Positions 21,745-27,845 of a stretch of 32,813 bases of DNA are shown here, in pieces. Position 1 is the first letter of the stretch; every line of letters begins with the position of its first letter. The position numbers and the translations under genes are program-made. Origin of the DNA: Clostridia bacterium. GTDB lineage: Bacteria > Bacillota > Clostridia > Lutisporales > Lutisporaceae. Where the stretch lies: the NCBI GenBank assembly GCA_017994115.1, contig JAGOLK010000012.1:1-32813 (forward strand), read 5' to 3'. The notes under the pieces are model-generated. The model did not search any database. It saw only the letters and a list, made by a program, of their open reading frames with translations, and was not told the origin of the DNA.

Positions 21745-22683
21745 TTAATCACCCAACGCCTTTTTCAAGTTTTCAAGATTTTCATACATTACAGTTATAT
21801 AATCCTTCCCGGACTTTATATCCTCTTCACTGAGGCCTGCCGCATCATTAAGCACCAGAACTCCTGCTCCAACTTCACTTGCCAGGGTCTCAGAGAGCTT
21901 TGGGCTTGTAAGCTTCTCAAAAAAAACATATTTTACTTTCTTCTCCCTGCATTTTCTGACAAGCTCAGCCATCTTTGACGGACTTGGTTCCTCCTGAGGA
22001 TTGATTCCTCTTATTGCAATCTGCTCCAATAAAAAATCATTTGCAAAGTAACCAAAGGACTCATGGGATACAACGATTATATTACTTTTGAAATGCTTTG
22101 AAGCATCCCATATATCTTTGCCCAAATCGGAAAGCCTTGAATCCAGTTCCATCTTCCTTTTTCCATAGTACTCCGAATTCTCAGGATCAATTTCCAAAAG
22201 CGCCTCATAAACATTCTGGGCCTGCTGCCTGAATCTTATGGGACTTACCCATATATGGGGATCATAGATTCCATGCTCATGGCTTTCCCCGGCCTCCTCC
22301 TCTTCACCGTGCTCCGAAGACTTCAGAAGCTCTATGCCCTGACTGGTATCAACTATTCTCGTTCTTTTTTCGTTAATGTTGGGCAGTATTTTATCTAACC
22401 ACGGTTCCATGCCTGCCCCGTTATATATCAGCATGTCAGCCTTGCTGATCTCCGCTGCCGTCTTTGGAGCAGGCTCCCAGTCATGAGGTTCCGCTCCCGC
22501 AGGTACCATAGTTATGACCTCCGCCTTGTCTCCTGCTATTTCACTTGCAAGAAAATACATGGGGTAAAAGCTGACATATATTTTCAATCTTTGGTCAGCC
22601 GGCTCCTTTCCGGCTTCCGTACAACCTGACAGCGCCGTGGCTGACAATAGTAAAATAATTACTGCAGTCATTGCCTTTTTCAT
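21745..22683 (-). CDS. znuA: Zinc-binding lipoprotein of the ABC importer
   Basis: 312 residues. A signal peptide ends in the lipobox LSGC with Cys21 lipidated. The cluster A-I fold carries metal-ligand His in AEPHDWEP, DPHIWVSP and SHESFGYF, and a Glu/His-rich loop (about residues 124-140, HGEEEEAGESHEHG) typical of zinc-specific ZnuA/AdcA proteins. The ATG at 22683 is chosen because AAGGAG lies eight bases upstream and the signal peptide begins there; an earlier in-frame start would run through the operator. It is the first gene of the operon, behind a strong promoter and Fur-type operator. Confidence 0.94.
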   Translation of the reverse strand: MKKAMTAVIILLLSATALSGCTEAGKEPADQRLKIYVSFYPMYFLASEIAGDKAEVITMVPAGAEPHDWEPAPKTAAEISKADMLIYNGAGMEPWLDKILPNINEKRTRIVDTSQGIELLKSSEHGEEEEAGESHEHGIYDPHIWVSPIRFRQQAQNVYEALLEIDPENSEYYGKRKMELDSRLSDLGKDIWDASKHFKSNIIVVSHESFGYFANDFLLEQIAIRGINPQEEPSPSKMAELVRKCREKKVKYVFFEKLTSPKLSETLASEVGAGVLVLNDAAGLSEEDIKSGKDYITVMYENLENLKKALGD

Positions 22684-22699
22684 TGCCTCTGCTCCTTTT

Positions 22700-22714
22700 T
22701 GCAAATCATTTGCA
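22700..22714. promoter_or_regulatory. Fur-family 7-1-7 operator (probable Zur box)
   Basis: TGCAAATCATTTGCA is a perfect 7-1-7 inverted repeat, the classical layout of Fur, Zur and PerR sites. It lies immediately downstream of the znuA -10, over the likely transcription start, where bound repressor would block RNA polymerase. The sequence differs from the B. subtilis Zur core (TCGTAATnATTACGA), so specificity is inferred from the operon. Confidence 0.82.
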
Positions 22715-22719
22715 TTTAC

Positions 22720-22748
22720 ATTGTATAATATGCCCAAGGCTGTGTCAA
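22720..22748 (-). promoter_or_regulatory. Promoter of the znuACB-fur operon
   Basis: On the minus strand TTGACA (22743-22748, perfect -35) is followed after exactly 17 bases by TACAAT (22720-22725, five of six for -10). The Fur-type operator lies just downstream. This is a housekeeping sigma-A type promoter. Confidence 0.87.
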
Positions 22749-22764: not shown

Positions 22765-22793
22765 TTGAATTTTCCTCAAACAGGAAGTATAAT
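22765..22793 (+). promoter_or_regulatory. Promoter of the PAS-AraC block
   Basis: TTGAAT (22765-22770), 17-base spacer, TATAAT (22788-22793). The spacer itself holds a 5-5-5 inverted repeat, TTCCTCAAACAGGAA (22772-22786), a candidate operator placed where a bound protein would cover the promoter. It diverges from the znuA promoter; the two -35 boxes are only 16 bases apart. The leader to the first start codon is about 100 bases with no gene or clear structure. Confidence 0.82.
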
Positions 22794-22902: not shown

Positions 22903-23673
22903 ATGGAATACAGGCAAAATAACATTATCGAATCATTTCAATCGTTCTTTGGAAAGGAAGAACTGCTTGCGAAAGTAATTGAGTTCTTCCCCTATCCCAT
23001 TCAGGTTTATGCTCCGGATGGAACATCGGTGCTTGTAAATAAGGCCATGCTGGCCGAATTTCATAATGTCAGCCCTGACATGGTTGTGGGAAAATACAAT
23101 ATATTCAAAGATCCTTACATTATTGCCTCAGGCCAGCTTCATGCGGTAAAACGGGCTTTCCAGGGAGAAACCGTCTTTTTCCCGGATGTCAGAGTACCTT
23201 TGGAAGATATTACAGAACGATACGGTATAAAGGATTTAGATGTGGAGGCTGTATATCAGGACATTACGGTTTTCCCCATTTTGGATGACATGAACCGGGT
23301 GTTATTTGTTGTGGCATTTATGATTAACAGGAGGGTTTATCGCGGCAAGGATGAAATTGAAAAGGCGAAAGAATACTTGGAAAACCACTGGATGGATAAG
23401 TTTAACGCAAGTGAAACGGCAAAGGCGGCATGCCTCAGCAAGGCACATTTCACAAAGCTGTTCAAGAAGCATACAGGCGTAACCCCCCATGAGTACTATA
23501 TCAATTATAAAATCAGCAAGCTGAAGGATAAGCTGCTGGATACCAACCTTTCCATAGCTCAGGCCTTTGCTGCCTGCAATATGGACTATAACGGCCATTC
23601 CGCAAGATTGTTCAAAGAAAAGGTCGGCGTTTCCCCTTCCGATTATCGAAAAATCTCAGATGGAAAGAAATGA
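22903..23673 (+). CDS. PAS-AraC transcriptional regulator, copy 1
   Basis: 256 residues. The N-terminal half (about 18-145) looks like a PAS-type sensor fold, starting EFFPYPIQVYAPDGTS and continuing NKAMLAEF. The C-terminal half (about 150-250) is an AraC double helix-turn-helix (LSKAHFTKLFKKHTGVTP and HSARLFKEKVGVSPSDYR). There is no receiver domain, so control is probably by ligand or redox binding to the PAS part. A strong promoter lies upstream, and the stop is 10 bases before the second copy. The DNA-binding half is nearly identical to copy 2 while the sensor half is not. Targets are unknown; the SLH gene downstream is one candidate. Confidence 0.86.
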   Translation: MEYRQNNIIESFQSFFGKEELLAKVIEFFPYPIQVYAPDGTSVLVNKAMLAEFHNVSPDMVVGKYNIFKDPYIIASGQLHAVKRAFQGETVFFPDVRVPLEDITERYGIKDLDVEAVYQDITVFPILDDMNRVLFVVAFMINRRVYRGKDEIEKAKEYLENHWMDKFNASETAKAACLSKAHFTKLFKKHTGVTPHEYYINYKISKLKDKLLDTNLSIAQAFAACNMDYNGHSARLFKEKVGVSPSDYRKISDGKK

Positions 23674-23683
23674 GGGTAAACCC

Positions 23684-24457
23684 ATGAAAGGTCAGATTGA
23701 TGATGCACAATGGAGTTTTGCTGAATCACTGCAGTCGCTTTCTGAGAAACAAGAACTGCTTGCAAAAGTGATCGAGTTCTTTCCCTATCCCATTCAGATT
23801 TTCTCTCCCGACGGTACGGCAAGGATGATTAATAAAGCGGCGCTGGAGATGATAGGCATAAGAAGCATAGAATGTCATGTTGGCAAATACAATGTTTTTA
23901 AGGACCCTATCGTGCATGAGCTTGGCTTTATGGATCAGGTCAGGCAGGTATTGACGGGCAAAACCGTATACCTTAGCAATTTTAATGCGCCTTATAAGGA
24001 TATGATCAAGTATTTTAATGTGAAAGACAGGGATATCCAGACCATAAGCTCAGACATTACTTGTTTTCCCTTGTTGAACGCTGATGGTGCTGTAGAATGC
24101 TTTGCCGCCGTTTTTATCTTTAAAAACATATACAAGGGGAAAGAAGAAATCGGACGAGGCAGACAATATATAGAGGCCCATTGGCAGGAGCCGTTTAACG
24201 CCGACGAAACGGCAAAGGCGGCATGCCTCAGCAAGGCACATTTCACAAAGCTGTTCAAAAAGCATACAGGTGTGACCCCCTATGAATACTATATCAACTA
24301 TAAAATCAGCAAGCTGAAGGAAAAGCTGCTGGATACCAACCTTTCAATCGCCCAGGCCTTTGCTGCCTGCAACATGGATTATAACGGCCATTCCGCAAGA
24401 TTGTTCAAAAAAAAGGTCGGCATTTCCCCGTCTGAATATAGGAAAATGTCGGAGTAA
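23684..24457 (+). CDS. PAS-AraC transcriptional regulator, copy 2
   Basis: 257 residues with the same PAS-AraC layout as the gene before it. The sensor part begins EFFPYPIQIFSPDGTA and diverges in the middle from copy 1. The DNA-binding part matches copy 1 almost residue for residue, including the run LSKAHFTKLFKKHTGVTP. The ATG at 23684 has GAGGG seven bases upstream; open frame upstream of it only overlaps copy 1. A terminator follows at 24486. The pair probably bind the same DNA motif but answer different signals, as homodimers or possibly as a heterodimer (inference). Confidence 0.86.
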   Translation: MKGQIDDAQWSFAESLQSLSEKQELLAKVIEFFPYPIQIFSPDGTARMINKAALEMIGIRSIECHVGKYNVFKDPIVHELGFMDQVRQVLTGKTVYLSNFNAPYKDMIKYFNVKDRDIQTISSDITCFPLLNADGAVECFAAVFIFKNIYKGKEEIGRGRQYIEAHWQEPFNADETAKAACLSKAHFTKLFKKHTGVTPYEYYINYKISKLKEKLLDTNLSIAQAFAACNMDYNGHSARLFKKKVGISPSEYRKMSE

Positions 24458-24485
24458 AATTAGATATCATAAAATTAATAACGAG

Positions 24486-24527
24486 GAAGCCCGGTTTTGG
24501 TTCAGTACGAAAACCCGGCTTCTTTTT
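24486..24527 (+). terminator. Terminator after the PAS-AraC pair
   Basis: GAAGCCCGGTTTT (24486-24498) pairs with AAAACCCGGCTTC (24510-24522) with one mismatch, followed by TTTTTC. The loop sequence TCAGTACGAAAA is exactly complementary to 24543-24554, which could compete with the stem if transcription passes through. Confidence 0.85.
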
Positions 24528-24653
24528 CATTCAAAATAACATTTTTCGTACTGATTATAAGCATATTTTACCTATATTCACAGCTTACAGATTAATAAAA
24601 TATTGATAGCAGCCACAAAAACGCCAGCAGTCCGGATAGAAAGGAGCATTCTT

Positions 24654-25049
24654 ATGGGTAATGAAACGAATGAACTGCTGCCTGGGGAACTGTTTCCTCA
24701 AATCATCGATTTTTTACCTTATCCCATTGCCATATTTACTCCGCAATATACATTGGTTATGATTAACAAGGCATTTGCGAAGGCAGTAAAAATGCGGTTT
24801 ATTAATGCGGAAAAAGGAACCGTACGCATCCTTCAGTACAAGATTGATGATACGCGGCTGGCTGAAGCCGTCAAACGTGTCTTTGCGGGAGACACCTTCT
24901 TCTTAGAGGACTTAAAGAACCCGTTTTCCATGTTTTCAGGAATTACACGGCAAAGCGCACCGCAGCCTGACAGTTTCAATAAGGCTGTTATTTTTCCTAT
25001 AGCCGGTGATGCAGAAATCACCTATGGCGTAATTGTTTTTATGCCGTGA
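24654..25049 (+). CDS. Stand-alone PAS-like protein related to the PAS-AraC sensors
   Basis: 131 residues. The start (FPQIIDFLPYPIAIFTPQYT, then VMINKAF) aligns with the sensor halves of the two PAS-AraC proteins upstream, and the chain stops where their DNA-binding domain would begin. The ATG has AAAGGAG seven bases upstream. There is no membrane segment or signal peptide. It is either a shortened third paralogue or a dedicated sensor or anti-regulator that could dimerise with the other two. It precedes the SLH gene by 46 bases, so they are probably co-transcribed from the 196-base gap after the terminator, in which I see no clear promoter. Confidence 0.72.
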   Translation: MGNETNELLPGELFPQIIDFLPYPIAIFTPQYTLVMINKAFAKAVKMRFINAEKGTVRILQYKIDDTRLAEAVKRVFAGDTFFLEDLKNPFSMFSGITRQSAPQPDSFNKAVIFPIAGDAEITYGVIVFMP

Positions 25050-25095
25050 AGGAGTGAATAACAAAATAAAAAATTTTTATAGGAGGTTAAGATCA

Positions 25096-26646
25096 GTGAA
25101 GAGGAAACTTATGGCTTTTTTAATCACCATGGTGATGATGGTTACCATGATGGGGAATTTATCGGCATTTGCGGCCAATCTGCCGACCGGCGGCAACCTT
25201 GATCAAGCCCCGCAAAACCTGATGGTGGAGCTTAAGGAATGGGAAGATGGAAGACCATATTTTGCGCTTAAGTGGACTAACCCTCAAAGCATATGGGACC
25301 TGGGGCGATATGGTGTTGAACATGGAGAGTGGGGTGCGGAGTATCAGATTGATATGAAGATTGGTGATGGACAATGGCGTTATGACATGGGCGAGAGTCT
25401 TTTCGGGAATGCGCTTGATTTTGATGAAGAATTCGATAAACCCGGAAATTATATAACGGATGATGTTACATGCGATCCTATGGACTTGGGCGTGGATGGT
25501 AATGTAGATATCAAGGCAAATGTCTATCATTTGCGGGTGAGATACGCCTATGTAGCTAATCAGGGCAGCGATGAAGAGCATTATATATACAGCCCCTTTT
25601 CCAATGTTGTTTCTATCGGTACCAAAGCGTTCTACAAGAATGCTTCCACCTGGGCAAAGACAGAGCTCCAAAAGGCTTATGACCTGGGACTTATCCCCGA
25701 CATATTGAAGGGTGCCGATATGACCAAACCGATAACCCGGGAGGAATTTGCCGAGCTTGGGGTATTGCTGTATGAAAAGGTTACAGGTAAAAAAAGCGAT
25801 CCGGTTTCTCCGAATCCTTTTACCGATACTGCAAATCTACAGGTACTGAAGGCTTACAACATAGGTATAACCTCCGGGACCTCCCAAACCACCTTTTCAC
25901 CGAAAGTTTTGATTAACCGTGAGCAATGCGCAACCATGCTGTTCAGGGCGATTAAGGCTATTCACCCCCAAGGGGATTACAGCATTGCGGGCGTCAAGGA
26001 TTTTCCCGACCAGAAAAACATTTCGGCCTGGGCGAATGAAGCAACAAAATATATAAATAAAATCGGCGTAATTACCGGTGACGCCCAGGGCAATTTTATG
26101 CCAAAAGCAGCCACGCCGGCCCAGGAGGCTGCCGGATACGGCATGGCTACAAGGGAACAGGCCATAGCCTTATCAGTCAGAACCTATGATAAAGCGCCGG
26201 AAATTAAAGCATCCGGAACAGGCAGTTCCAATACTGAAATTGATTTGCCGATAACGGCACCGGACAGTTCCAATTCCGGCAGCGATTCATCGGGAGCTAA
26301 AGCAAGCAGCGGTCCCATACCCGCAGATATAAGAGCAGGATTGCCCAAGGGATTTCCTGACATTCCCGTTGCCGCCGATATGAAATACGATGCCTTTCAG
26401 AGCGGGATTTTTTCAAGGGACGGCAAAACTGCCATTGTCTATACGTCGAAACAATCATTAGAAGCTCTTTACAATTTGTATTTTGATTTCTTTAAGGGTT
26501 CAGAGAATTTTTTCACTCACAGACAGAATGATGGAAATTTCTCCTTTATTAGCTGTGTCAAGGATGGATGGGAGATAAAAGTGGATGTTTCGTGGAGTTT
26601 GGAACACTGGGTGTATATCACTGGCACACCCTATGAAGAATATTAA
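25096..26646 (+). CDS. Secreted SLH-domain surface protein
   Basis: 516 residues from GTG 25096, eight bases after a perfect AGGAGGT. The signal peptide is cleaved probably after AFA26. Residues about 35-180 resemble a fibronectin type III-like fold (APQNLMVEL ... FSNVVSIG). Then come about three SLH repeats (about 185-375), recognisable by TREEFAELGVLLYE, FTDT...NREQCATMLFRA and FPDQKNIS...TREQAIALSVR, which anchor to pyruvylated cell-wall polymer. A Ser/Gly-rich linker (about 380-410) leads to a C-terminal domain of about 110 residues that I do not recognise. It is the last gene of the plus-strand block. Confidence 0.88.
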   Translation: MKRKLMAFLITMVMMVTMMGNLSAFAANLPTGGNLDQAPQNLMVELKEWEDGRPYFALKWTNPQSIWDLGRYGVEHGEWGAEYQIDMKIGDGQWRYDMGESLFGNALDFDEEFDKPGNYITDDVTCDPMDLGVDGNVDIKANVYHLRVRYAYVANQGSDEEHYIYSPFSNVVSIGTKAFYKNASTWAKTELQKAYDLGLIPDILKGADMTKPITREEFAELGVLLYEKVTGKKSDPVSPNPFTDTANLQVLKAYNIGITSGTSQTTFSPKVLINREQCATMLFRAIKAIHPQGDYSIAGVKDFPDQKNISAWANEATKYINKIGVITGDAQGNFMPKAATPAQEAAGYGMATREQAIALSVRTYDKAPEIKASGTGSSNTEIDLPITAPDSSNSGSDSSGAKASSGPIPADIRAGLPKGFPDIPVAADMKYDAFQSGIFSRDGKTAIVYTSKQSLEALYNLYFDFFKGSENFFTHRQNDGNFSFISCVKDGWEIKVDVSWSLEHWVYITGTPYEEY

Positions 26647-26666: not shown

Positions 26667-26692
26667 AAGAAGCCACAAATCTGTGGCTTCTT
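26667..26692. terminator. Shared bidirectional terminator of convergent genes
   Basis: AGAAGCCACA pairs with TGTGGCTTCT; pyrimidine-rich sequence follows on the plus strand and CTTCTTTTAATG on the minus strand. It lies between the stops of the SLH gene and the M23 hydrolase gene, which point at each other. Confidence 0.82.
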
Positions 26693-26694
26693 CT

Positions 26695-27834
26695 CTACTT
26701 TTTGCCTGTCAGGTATTTCATGGGATCCACATGCTGGCCGTTTTCCCTTACTTCAAAGTGCAGATGCGGCCCTGTGGACAGTCCGGTGCTGCCTGATTTG
26801 GATATCACCTTGCCCTTTTCAACCTTGTCTCCTACCTTTACAAGGAGCTTGCTGTTATGGGCATATAGTGTCGATATCTTGCCGCCGTGGTCTATGATTA
26901 CGGTATTGCCGTAGCCTCCGTTGTATCCTGAGTATATGACCTTGCCTGCATTCGCAGCAAGCACGGAAGTGCCGCTGGGAACTGCGATATCTATTCCAGT
27001 ATGCATTTTTTTCTTCTTAAGTATGGGATGGGTCCTGTTGCCATATTGTGATGTAATCTTGTAATAACCCGGTGCCGGCCATCCCAGCTCCCCTCCTATA
27101 TACTTTTCCTTTGACTGCAGTTCAACTATCTTTTTTGCAATCTCTTTAGACTGCTCCAGAAGCTTGTCCTCCTGGCGCTCCAGTTCCTTGAGGTCACTTA
27201 GTATCTCTTTCAGGGTCATCTCTTTGACCTGCTTGGCTGTCTCAACCTCTTCCTTTTTCTTACCTATCTCATTCTTAAGCCTTTCTTTCTCTTCCAGCTC
27301 TGATGCCAGCTGGCTTCTTTTATCTGCAACCGAATCCCGGTAGCTTTTCATTTTGCTCAGCAGTTCCATGTCGAAGCTGATGATTTTTTTCAAAAAATCC
27401 ACTCTGGATATGAAATCGGAGAAGCTTACAGAGTTCAGTATTACAGACATATATCCGACATTTCCGTTTTCATACATGACCCTGACTCTCTTTTTCAGCA
27501 GCTCCTTCTGATTCGCAGCTTCACTTGAAGCCCTTTCAAGCTCCCTTGTGGTCACTGCTATCTGGTTCTCCAATTGCGAAAGCTGATTTTCAACACTGGT
27601 AAGCTCATCCTCGGCCTGGTTAAGCTTGCTGTCCAAATCTTCTATGGCTTTTGCCACACTAACTTTCTCAGTCTTTATCTTGTTAATGCTGCTCTGCATC
27701 TGCTTTATCTGCTGATTAAGCTTGTCCTGACTCCTCTGAAGCTCATCTATTTCAGTCGGATTTTTTGCATATACATTAGCACAGGGTATTGAAAGCATAA
27801 GTGCTATCAGAGCTGCTGCTATCCTTTTATTCAA
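26695..27834 (-). CDS. Coiled-coil M23 peptidoglycan hydrolase (EnvC/CwlO-like)
   Basis: About 379 residues. A signal peptide (cleaved after VYA) is followed by a long coiled coil (about 28-245) and a LytM/M23 endopeptidase domain (about 265-375). The zinc ligands are present (MHTGIDIA and PHLHFEVR), so unlike E. coli EnvC the domain looks catalytically competent. It starts 11 bases after ftsX and should be the hydrolase controlled by FtsEX, through contact of its coiled coil with FtsX. The start is set at TTG 27834, seven bases after GGAGG; a GTG six bases earlier lies too close to that site. Confidence 0.88.
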   Translation of the reverse strand: MNKRIAAALIALMLSIPCANVYAKNPTEIDELQRSQDKLNQQIKQMQSSINKIKTEKVSVAKAIEDLDSKLNQAEDELTSVENQLSQLENQIAVTTRELERASSEAANQKELLKKRVRVMYENGNVGYMSVILNSVSFSDFISRVDFLKKIISFDMELLSKMKSYRDSVADKRSQLASELEEKERLKNEIGKKKEEVETAKQVKEMTLKEILSDLKELERQEDKLLEQSKEIAKKIVELQSKEKYIGGELGWPAPGYYKITSQYGNRTHPILKKKKMHTGIDIAVPSGTSVLAANAGKVIYSGYNGGYGNTVIIDHGGKISTLYAHNSKLLVKVGDKVEKGKVISKSGSTGLSTGPHLHFEVRENGQHVDPMKYLTGKK

Positions 27835-27845
27835 CTTCACCCCTC

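Follow-up and report, generated by a model that had tools for sequence, protein, structure and literature searches.

A candidate dual-input PAS-AraC switch with a co-encoded PAS-only protein for cell-surface proteins in anaerobic Clostridia

PAS-only proteins such as VIVID and IPAS dampen the activity of PAS transcription factors. Among the regulators of the AraC type, the ANR (AraC negative regulator) family supplies a small protein, Aar (AggR-activated regulator), that feeds back on AggR through protein-protein contact (PMC10148876). AraC-type regulators are also known beside surface-protein genes: the family TIGR04094 comprises YSIRK-adjacent AraC regulators, EbrB has been shown to regulate esp in Enterococcus faecium (PMC3669262), and an AraC-type regulator lies beside a surface-protein gene in the Spy1337-R28 pair of Streptococcus pyogenes (PMC7098570). 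Here we describe a locus that resembles each of these in part, located on a window of 32,813 nucleotides, namely the entire contig JAGOLK010000012.1 (C61) of a Clostridia bacterium of the Lutisporaceae (GCA_017994115.1; genome of 1.97 Mb in 127 contigs, 81% complete). It encodes two PAS-AraC one-component regulators (AraC1 and AraC2), a PAS-only protein and an exported S-layer homology (SLH) protein.

As in TIGR04094 systems (EbrB-esp, Spy1337-R28), an AraC-type regulator gene adjoins a surface-protein gene; unlike those systems, this one pairs two regulators, equips them with PAS sensors and adds a PAS-only protein, and its outputs are SLH/CWB2 proteins or lipoproteins instead of YSIRK/LPXTG proteins. 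AraC1 and AraC2 score 41.5 and 46.3 bits against a TIGR04094 cut-off of 200, and the SLH protein begins MKRKLMAFLITMVMMVTMMGNLSAFAA, which is not the YSIRK signal peptide of TIGR04094 neighbors. With the ANR family it shares a small accessory protein that accompanies an AraC-type regulator, but a PAS fold is predicted for PAS-only and is not part of the description of ANR proteins, and inhibition by PAS-only is hypothetical. With VIVID and IPAS it shares a truncated PAS protein paired with PAS-containing regulators, but those are eukaryotic, and PAS-only sometimes accompanies a non-PAS AraC regulator. Finally, as in AraC/XylS one-component regulators, there are two C-terminal helix-turn-helix (HTH) motifs and a candidate operator next to the -35 region; in contrast to these, PAS replaces the cupin-like arm, and two regulators with different sensors would share one DNA-binding specificity. 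Because the TIGR04094 score and signal-peptide features are missing and the fold of PAS-only differs, we regard the module as working like the known systems without being a member of any. We found no paper describing it, and the S-layer papers on Syntrophomonas wolfei, which discuss Swol_0133 and Swol_2183, mention neither AraC regulators nor this layout. The dual-sensor/PAS-only/SLH architecture appears to be undescribed; the sequence-only reading of the window had likewise known of no named system, which holds for the full layout, whereas AraC regulators beside surface-protein genes have the above precedents.

We consider it likely that the locus is a dual-input one-component switch for cell-surface proteins, with AraC1 and AraC2 acting through a shared operator on a PAS-only/SLH output and PAS-only feeding back on them. 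Searches for PAS-only and PAS-AraC, in relatives and then in a genome collection, recovered 78 loci from the latter, nearly all in metagenome-assembled genomes of Bacillota, together with the isolate Syntrophomonas wolfei subsp. methylbutyratica. Across many genera these show a recurring order: type-1 and/or type-2 PAS-AraC genes, often PAS-only, and then genes for exported proteins. The full set occurs in the window and L066 and, with contig-edge or partial genes, in L071 and L099, and a regulator, PAS-only and an SLH gene occur together in L106, L108, L112, L116, L119, L123 and L137. The sequence-only reading had taken lack of linkage in other genomes, together with lack of co-expression, as evidence against a module; with 78 further loci in Clostridia, the neighborhood is evidently a recurrent one. 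The gene after PAS-only codes for a signal peptide (called throughout by our own heuristic) in 22 of the 23 assessable true cases, as against 37 of 289 background genes (13%), the lone exception being an MFS transporter gene in L074; the corresponding Fisher test was run on 22/24 versus 37/289 (p=6 × 10–16), a set that included a mislabelled truncated regulator (L122). Protein families encoded downstream include SLH (13/44), fn3, Glug, CWB2 and Big_2. Going by this sequence evidence, the PAS-AraC regulators very probably control the adjoining secreted or SLH surface proteins. This Clostridia module also turns up under record titles of Micrarchaeota, Parabacteroides, Anaerolineaceae and Synergistaceae (L116, L105, L079 and L099), and the PAS-only of L116 is 98% identical to that of Syntrophomonas, which suggests misbinned contigs. 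AIM24-family or AIM24-like proteins are encoded in or beside the module in L235 (4275-5111) and L069 (an open reading frame [ORF] of 300 amino acids). We rejected plasmid spread of the module, as a search of plasmids gave no PAS-only match and only distant AraC matches.

The element that would tie regulators to output is a conserved operator/promoter of ~64 bp (window positions 24541-24604), found downstream of the regulators in about 60 loci. Upstream of PAS-only, the arrangement ATTTTTCkTACTAATTATAAGCATATTCAACCTATCCT-N17-TAAAAT is conserved in 26 loci; a profile of the 38-bp operator gave leave-one-out scores of 25-51 over these, with 0 matches scoring at least 14 in 2 Mb of simulated sequence. 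Its geometry is fixed and, with few exceptions, it is flanked by a regulator gene immediately upstream and by either PAS-only or a surface gene downstream; loci that lack PAS-only have it immediately before the exported gene (e.g., L060, L063, L079, L080 and L085). The distal operator block occupies the -35 position, where the hexamer is otherwise poor; we infer that an AraC activator site would have this appearance. Operator presence also follows the recognition helix of the regulators: most loci with the [HY]S type have it, and those with AFAR, HYAD, NFSK, NLAK or HYAR lack it.

The genome of the window has two strong operator sites, one in the window (53.9 bits, E=3.5 × 10–14) and one at C108:46796 (67.5 bits), where it directly precedes an unlinked SLH paralog on a part of contig C108 in which no PAS-AraC gene was found. 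The DNA upstream of the two SLH genes cannot be aligned except for a short stretch around the promoter; the first 1.17 kb of the genes themselves is 94% identical, and the C-terminal parts differ. That the SLH protein is the output, as proposed from the window alone, thereby gains independent support, since, besides the linkage seen elsewhere, the same operator stands at a second, distant SLH gene of this genome. In congeners, the operator precedes a truncated ortholog of the C108 SLH gene (L223) and a gene for a 1073-residue protein whose start resembles a signal peptide (L224); in genomes other than these it precedes a lipoprotein gene (L232) and one for a DUF4870-like protein (L229). Across 291 genomes of the class (regulators at E<=10–40, operator at E<=10–4), the operator occurs in 12 of the 14 genomes with regulators versus 4 of the 277 without (p=2.6 × 10–16). 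The window SLH protein itself scores 36.2 bits (E=6 × 10–9) against the Pfam SLH cut-off of 20.8 and combines the SLH repeats and signal peptide typical of S-layer homology proteins; its architecture, including the C-terminal domain, recurs in L066, L075, L116, L119 and L123. A comparison of window 25096-26646 with L055:8935-10719 shows SLH proteins with a 94% identical (DNA) N-terminal/SLH part and unrelated C-terminal ends, as if surface heads were swapped on one anchor.

Both regulators have the C-terminal double HTH of the AraC/XylS family (Pfam HTH_18: 63.7 and 66.3 bits, E=2 × 10–17 and 3 × 10–18, cut-off 33.6), whereas their PAS regions, like that of PAS-only, fall under the Pfam cut-offs. 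An AlphaFold model of AraC1 (mean confidence score, pLDDT, 86) matches PAS-like and AraC HTH structures, and a congener has an AraC1 ortholog (L045; 94% identity over 190 residues at a contig edge) beside the same zinc-uptake genes. The type-1 and type-2 proteins resolve apart on the tree. Between AraC1 and AraC2, amino acid identity is 42% in the sensor and 85% in the HTH domain, and DNA identity about 91% in the HTH half and about 50% for the greater part of the sensor half; other adjacent pairs show the same trend (HTH 65-91%, sensors 34-43%), and in L046 both regulators are fused in one ORF of 559 codons. As the HTH halves have a dS of only 0.38 while the sensor halves are saturated, the comparison points to homogenization of the former by gene conversion in this lineage. 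With divergent sensors and nearly identical DNA-binding domains, AraC1 and AraC2 probably read one operator from two inputs. We also recovered a PAS-AraC subfamily with an extra HTH_17-like (MerR-like) domain N-terminal to PAS (L049:7784-8773, L052:5376-6440, L243:7467-8435; in L243 the Pfam match, E=0.002, is below cut-off).

The PAS-only protein was proposed from the window alone to be a sensor-only relative of the regulators; AlphaFold supports the PAS assignment (pLDDT 79; the best PDB matches are PAS/LOV domains, TM-score up to about 0.6), whereas Pfam PAS models do not reach their cut-off (PAS_8: 13.1 bits against 21.8; E<0.01 in 1 of 30 members). On the structural model, then, it has a PAS fold. 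Its 30 members form a single clade (support 96) beside the type-1 and type-2 PAS domains, with a conserved core and a motif, NPFSMFSGI, not seen in the regulators; most relatives have an N-terminal coiled-coil-like segment that is deleted in the window copy. With a median dN/dS of 0.21, PAS-only is under purifying selection, and this together with its single clade rules out a decayed regulator. That a conserved clade of its own is encoded inside the output operon suggests feedback on the regulators.

In the mechanism that we favor, AraC1 and AraC2 would sense different cytoplasmic signals via their different PAS domains and, as homo- or heterodimers, would both bind the same operator. Binding would activate the PAS-only/SLH promoter rather than repress it, since the operator overlaps a -35 region without a good hexamer. 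The regulon here would comprise two SLH proteins, given the operator before the second SLH gene on C108, with the same N-terminal and anchoring half and different C-terminal parts; PAS-only, made with the output, would most likely feed back on the regulators by damping or tuning, comparable to Aar on AggR. How it would do so is where alternatives arise. A somewhat unlikely one is that PAS-only is a competitive titrator, forming mixed PAS-PAS dimers with AraC1 or AraC2 that cannot bind DNA, in the manner of VIVID or IPAS: its PAS fold, its clade as sister to the PAS domains of the regulators, its want of any DNA-binding domain and its place in the very operon it would damp all accord with this, but the motif of its own does not, and in L242 and L042 the AraC regulator beside PAS-only shows no recognizable PAS. 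Simple PAS-PAS titration cannot then be the whole story, and the partner of PAS-only may be something other than a PAS domain. In these two loci (L242:5612-8300 and L042:1651-8305) lipoprotein or SLH genes adjoin as well. It is unlikely that PAS-only is instead a co-sensor or activator subunit needed by the regulators; close linkage, conservation and a promoter shared with the output, which would give positive feedback, fit such a role, but L060, L063, L080 and L085 lack PAS-only and yet have a regulator, operator and surface gene that look functional, and because such loci are many it does not seem essential.

Several observations weigh against the dual-input switch as a whole. Among the targets linked to the operator are a DUF4870-like membrane protein (L229, L073) and a non-exported AIM24-like protein (L069); two genomes (G004 and G222) carry regulators without the operator at E<=10–4; four have the operator without regulators at the threshold used; the best internal shift in the operator, a 21-bp direct repeat, is not significant (p=0.24); divergent PAS-AraC subfamilies (L040, L043, L049) lie by surface genes without this operator; and PAS-only adjoins the PAS-less regulators of L242 and L042. 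The four regulator-less genomes, and the fact that binding of the operator by PAS-AraC is predicted, would suit an operator read by another regulator, with the PAS-AraC genes mere neighbors. We regard this as improbable in view of the strong genome-level co-occurrence and the dependence on recognition-helix type; moreover, two of the four (G101 and G172) keep a PAS-only gene or family fragment, and the genomes are incomplete. An ordinary neighborhood, in which an AraC gene was duplicated, PAS-only is a third copy in decay and the SLH gene is unrelated, is very improbable: the three PAS proteins are indeed paralogs and SLH genes are common in this genome, but the single PAS-only clade with its dN/dS of about 0.21 and a linkage to exported proteins far above background already contradict it. 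Only tentatively do we extend the dual-input switch to a new class in anaerobic Clostridia, in which two PAS inputs and a DNA-binding specificity matched by gene conversion would form a two-input gate with PAS-only feedback, choosing the SLH protein displayed. The same genome has a third PAS-AraC gene (L040:1595-5355, contig C6) upstream of one for a 941-residue secreted protein, a pair kept in congeners (L051, L053) and lacking the present operator.

In the window, the four ORFs for the two one-component regulators, PAS-only and the secreted SLH protein are adjacent on the + strand between minus-strand genes, as originally described, and the Pfam matches and signal peptide bear out the assignments of regulators and SLH protein (Table 1). 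To the left lie minus-strand zinc-uptake genes, including znuA (21745-22737), and to the right a minus-strand M23 peptidase gene (26695-27840). AraC2 starts at ATG 23684, not at an upstream TTG. PAS-only starts at ATG 24654 and SLH at GTG 25096, both preceded by a ribosome-binding site; gene calls were mechanical. A strong terminator downstream of AraC2, more stable than all 200 shuffled sequences (0/200 equally stable) and paralleled by a hairpin and T-run at the matching position in several other loci (judged by eye), rules out a single four-gene operon and separates two transcription units, the AraC pair and PAS-only/SLH. No Rfam match to a known RNA element was found. Over 24502-24556 the operator and the loop of the terminator together make up an almost perfect inverted repeat (CAGTACGAAAA / TTTTCGTACTG), which had a counterpart of similar quality at just one of the few other loci scored. 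The inverted copy of TCAGTACGAAAA/TTTTCGTACTGA, though strong in the window, was rejected as a shared switch, since a comparable match came from L076 alone among ten other loci scored.

Table 1. Features of the PAS-AraC/PAS-only/SLH locus (window coordinates).
Feature	Position	Strand	Basis and remarks
Sigma-70-like promoter (TTGAAT-17-TATAAT)	22765..22793	+	Consensus scan 10/12, position only; likely drives AraC1-AraC2 unit
AraC1, type-1 PAS-AraC one-component regulator, 256 aa	22903..23673	+	Pfam HTH_18/HTH_AraC above cut-off; AlphaFold
AraC2, type-2 PAS-AraC regulator, 257 aa	23684..24457	+	Pfam; almost the same as AraC1 in the HTH half, divergent in the sensor half
Intrinsic terminator closing AraC1-AraC2 unit	24483..24525	+	Fold -22.7 kcal/mol, z=-4.4
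Conserved operator ATTTTTCGTACTGATTATAAGCATATTTTACCTATATT	24541..24578	+	Leave-one-out profile; distal block overlaps -35 position
-10 element TAAAAT	24596..24601	+	17 bp past distal operator block; near-invariant alignment columns
PAS-only, 131 aa, first gene of output operon	24654..25049	+	No DNA-binding domain; alignment, tree, AlphaFold
Exported SLH protein, 516 aa	25096..26646	+	Signal peptide, N-terminal domain, SLH repeats, Ser-rich linker, C-terminal domain
Terminator ending PAS-only/SLH unit	26667..26692	+	Pattern scan: 11-pair stem, then T-rich tail

In syntrophic and other anaerobic Clostridia, contact with partners is governed by surface proteins whose regulation is poorly known. 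For one-component systems, it would be unusual to find a single DNA-binding domain shared by two sensors, and likewise a conserved sensor-only protein encoded together with the output. Because its regulators are named, its operator defined and its targets predicted, the module is directly testable; one of its carriers, Syntrophomonas wolfei subsp. methylbutyratica, is an isolate.

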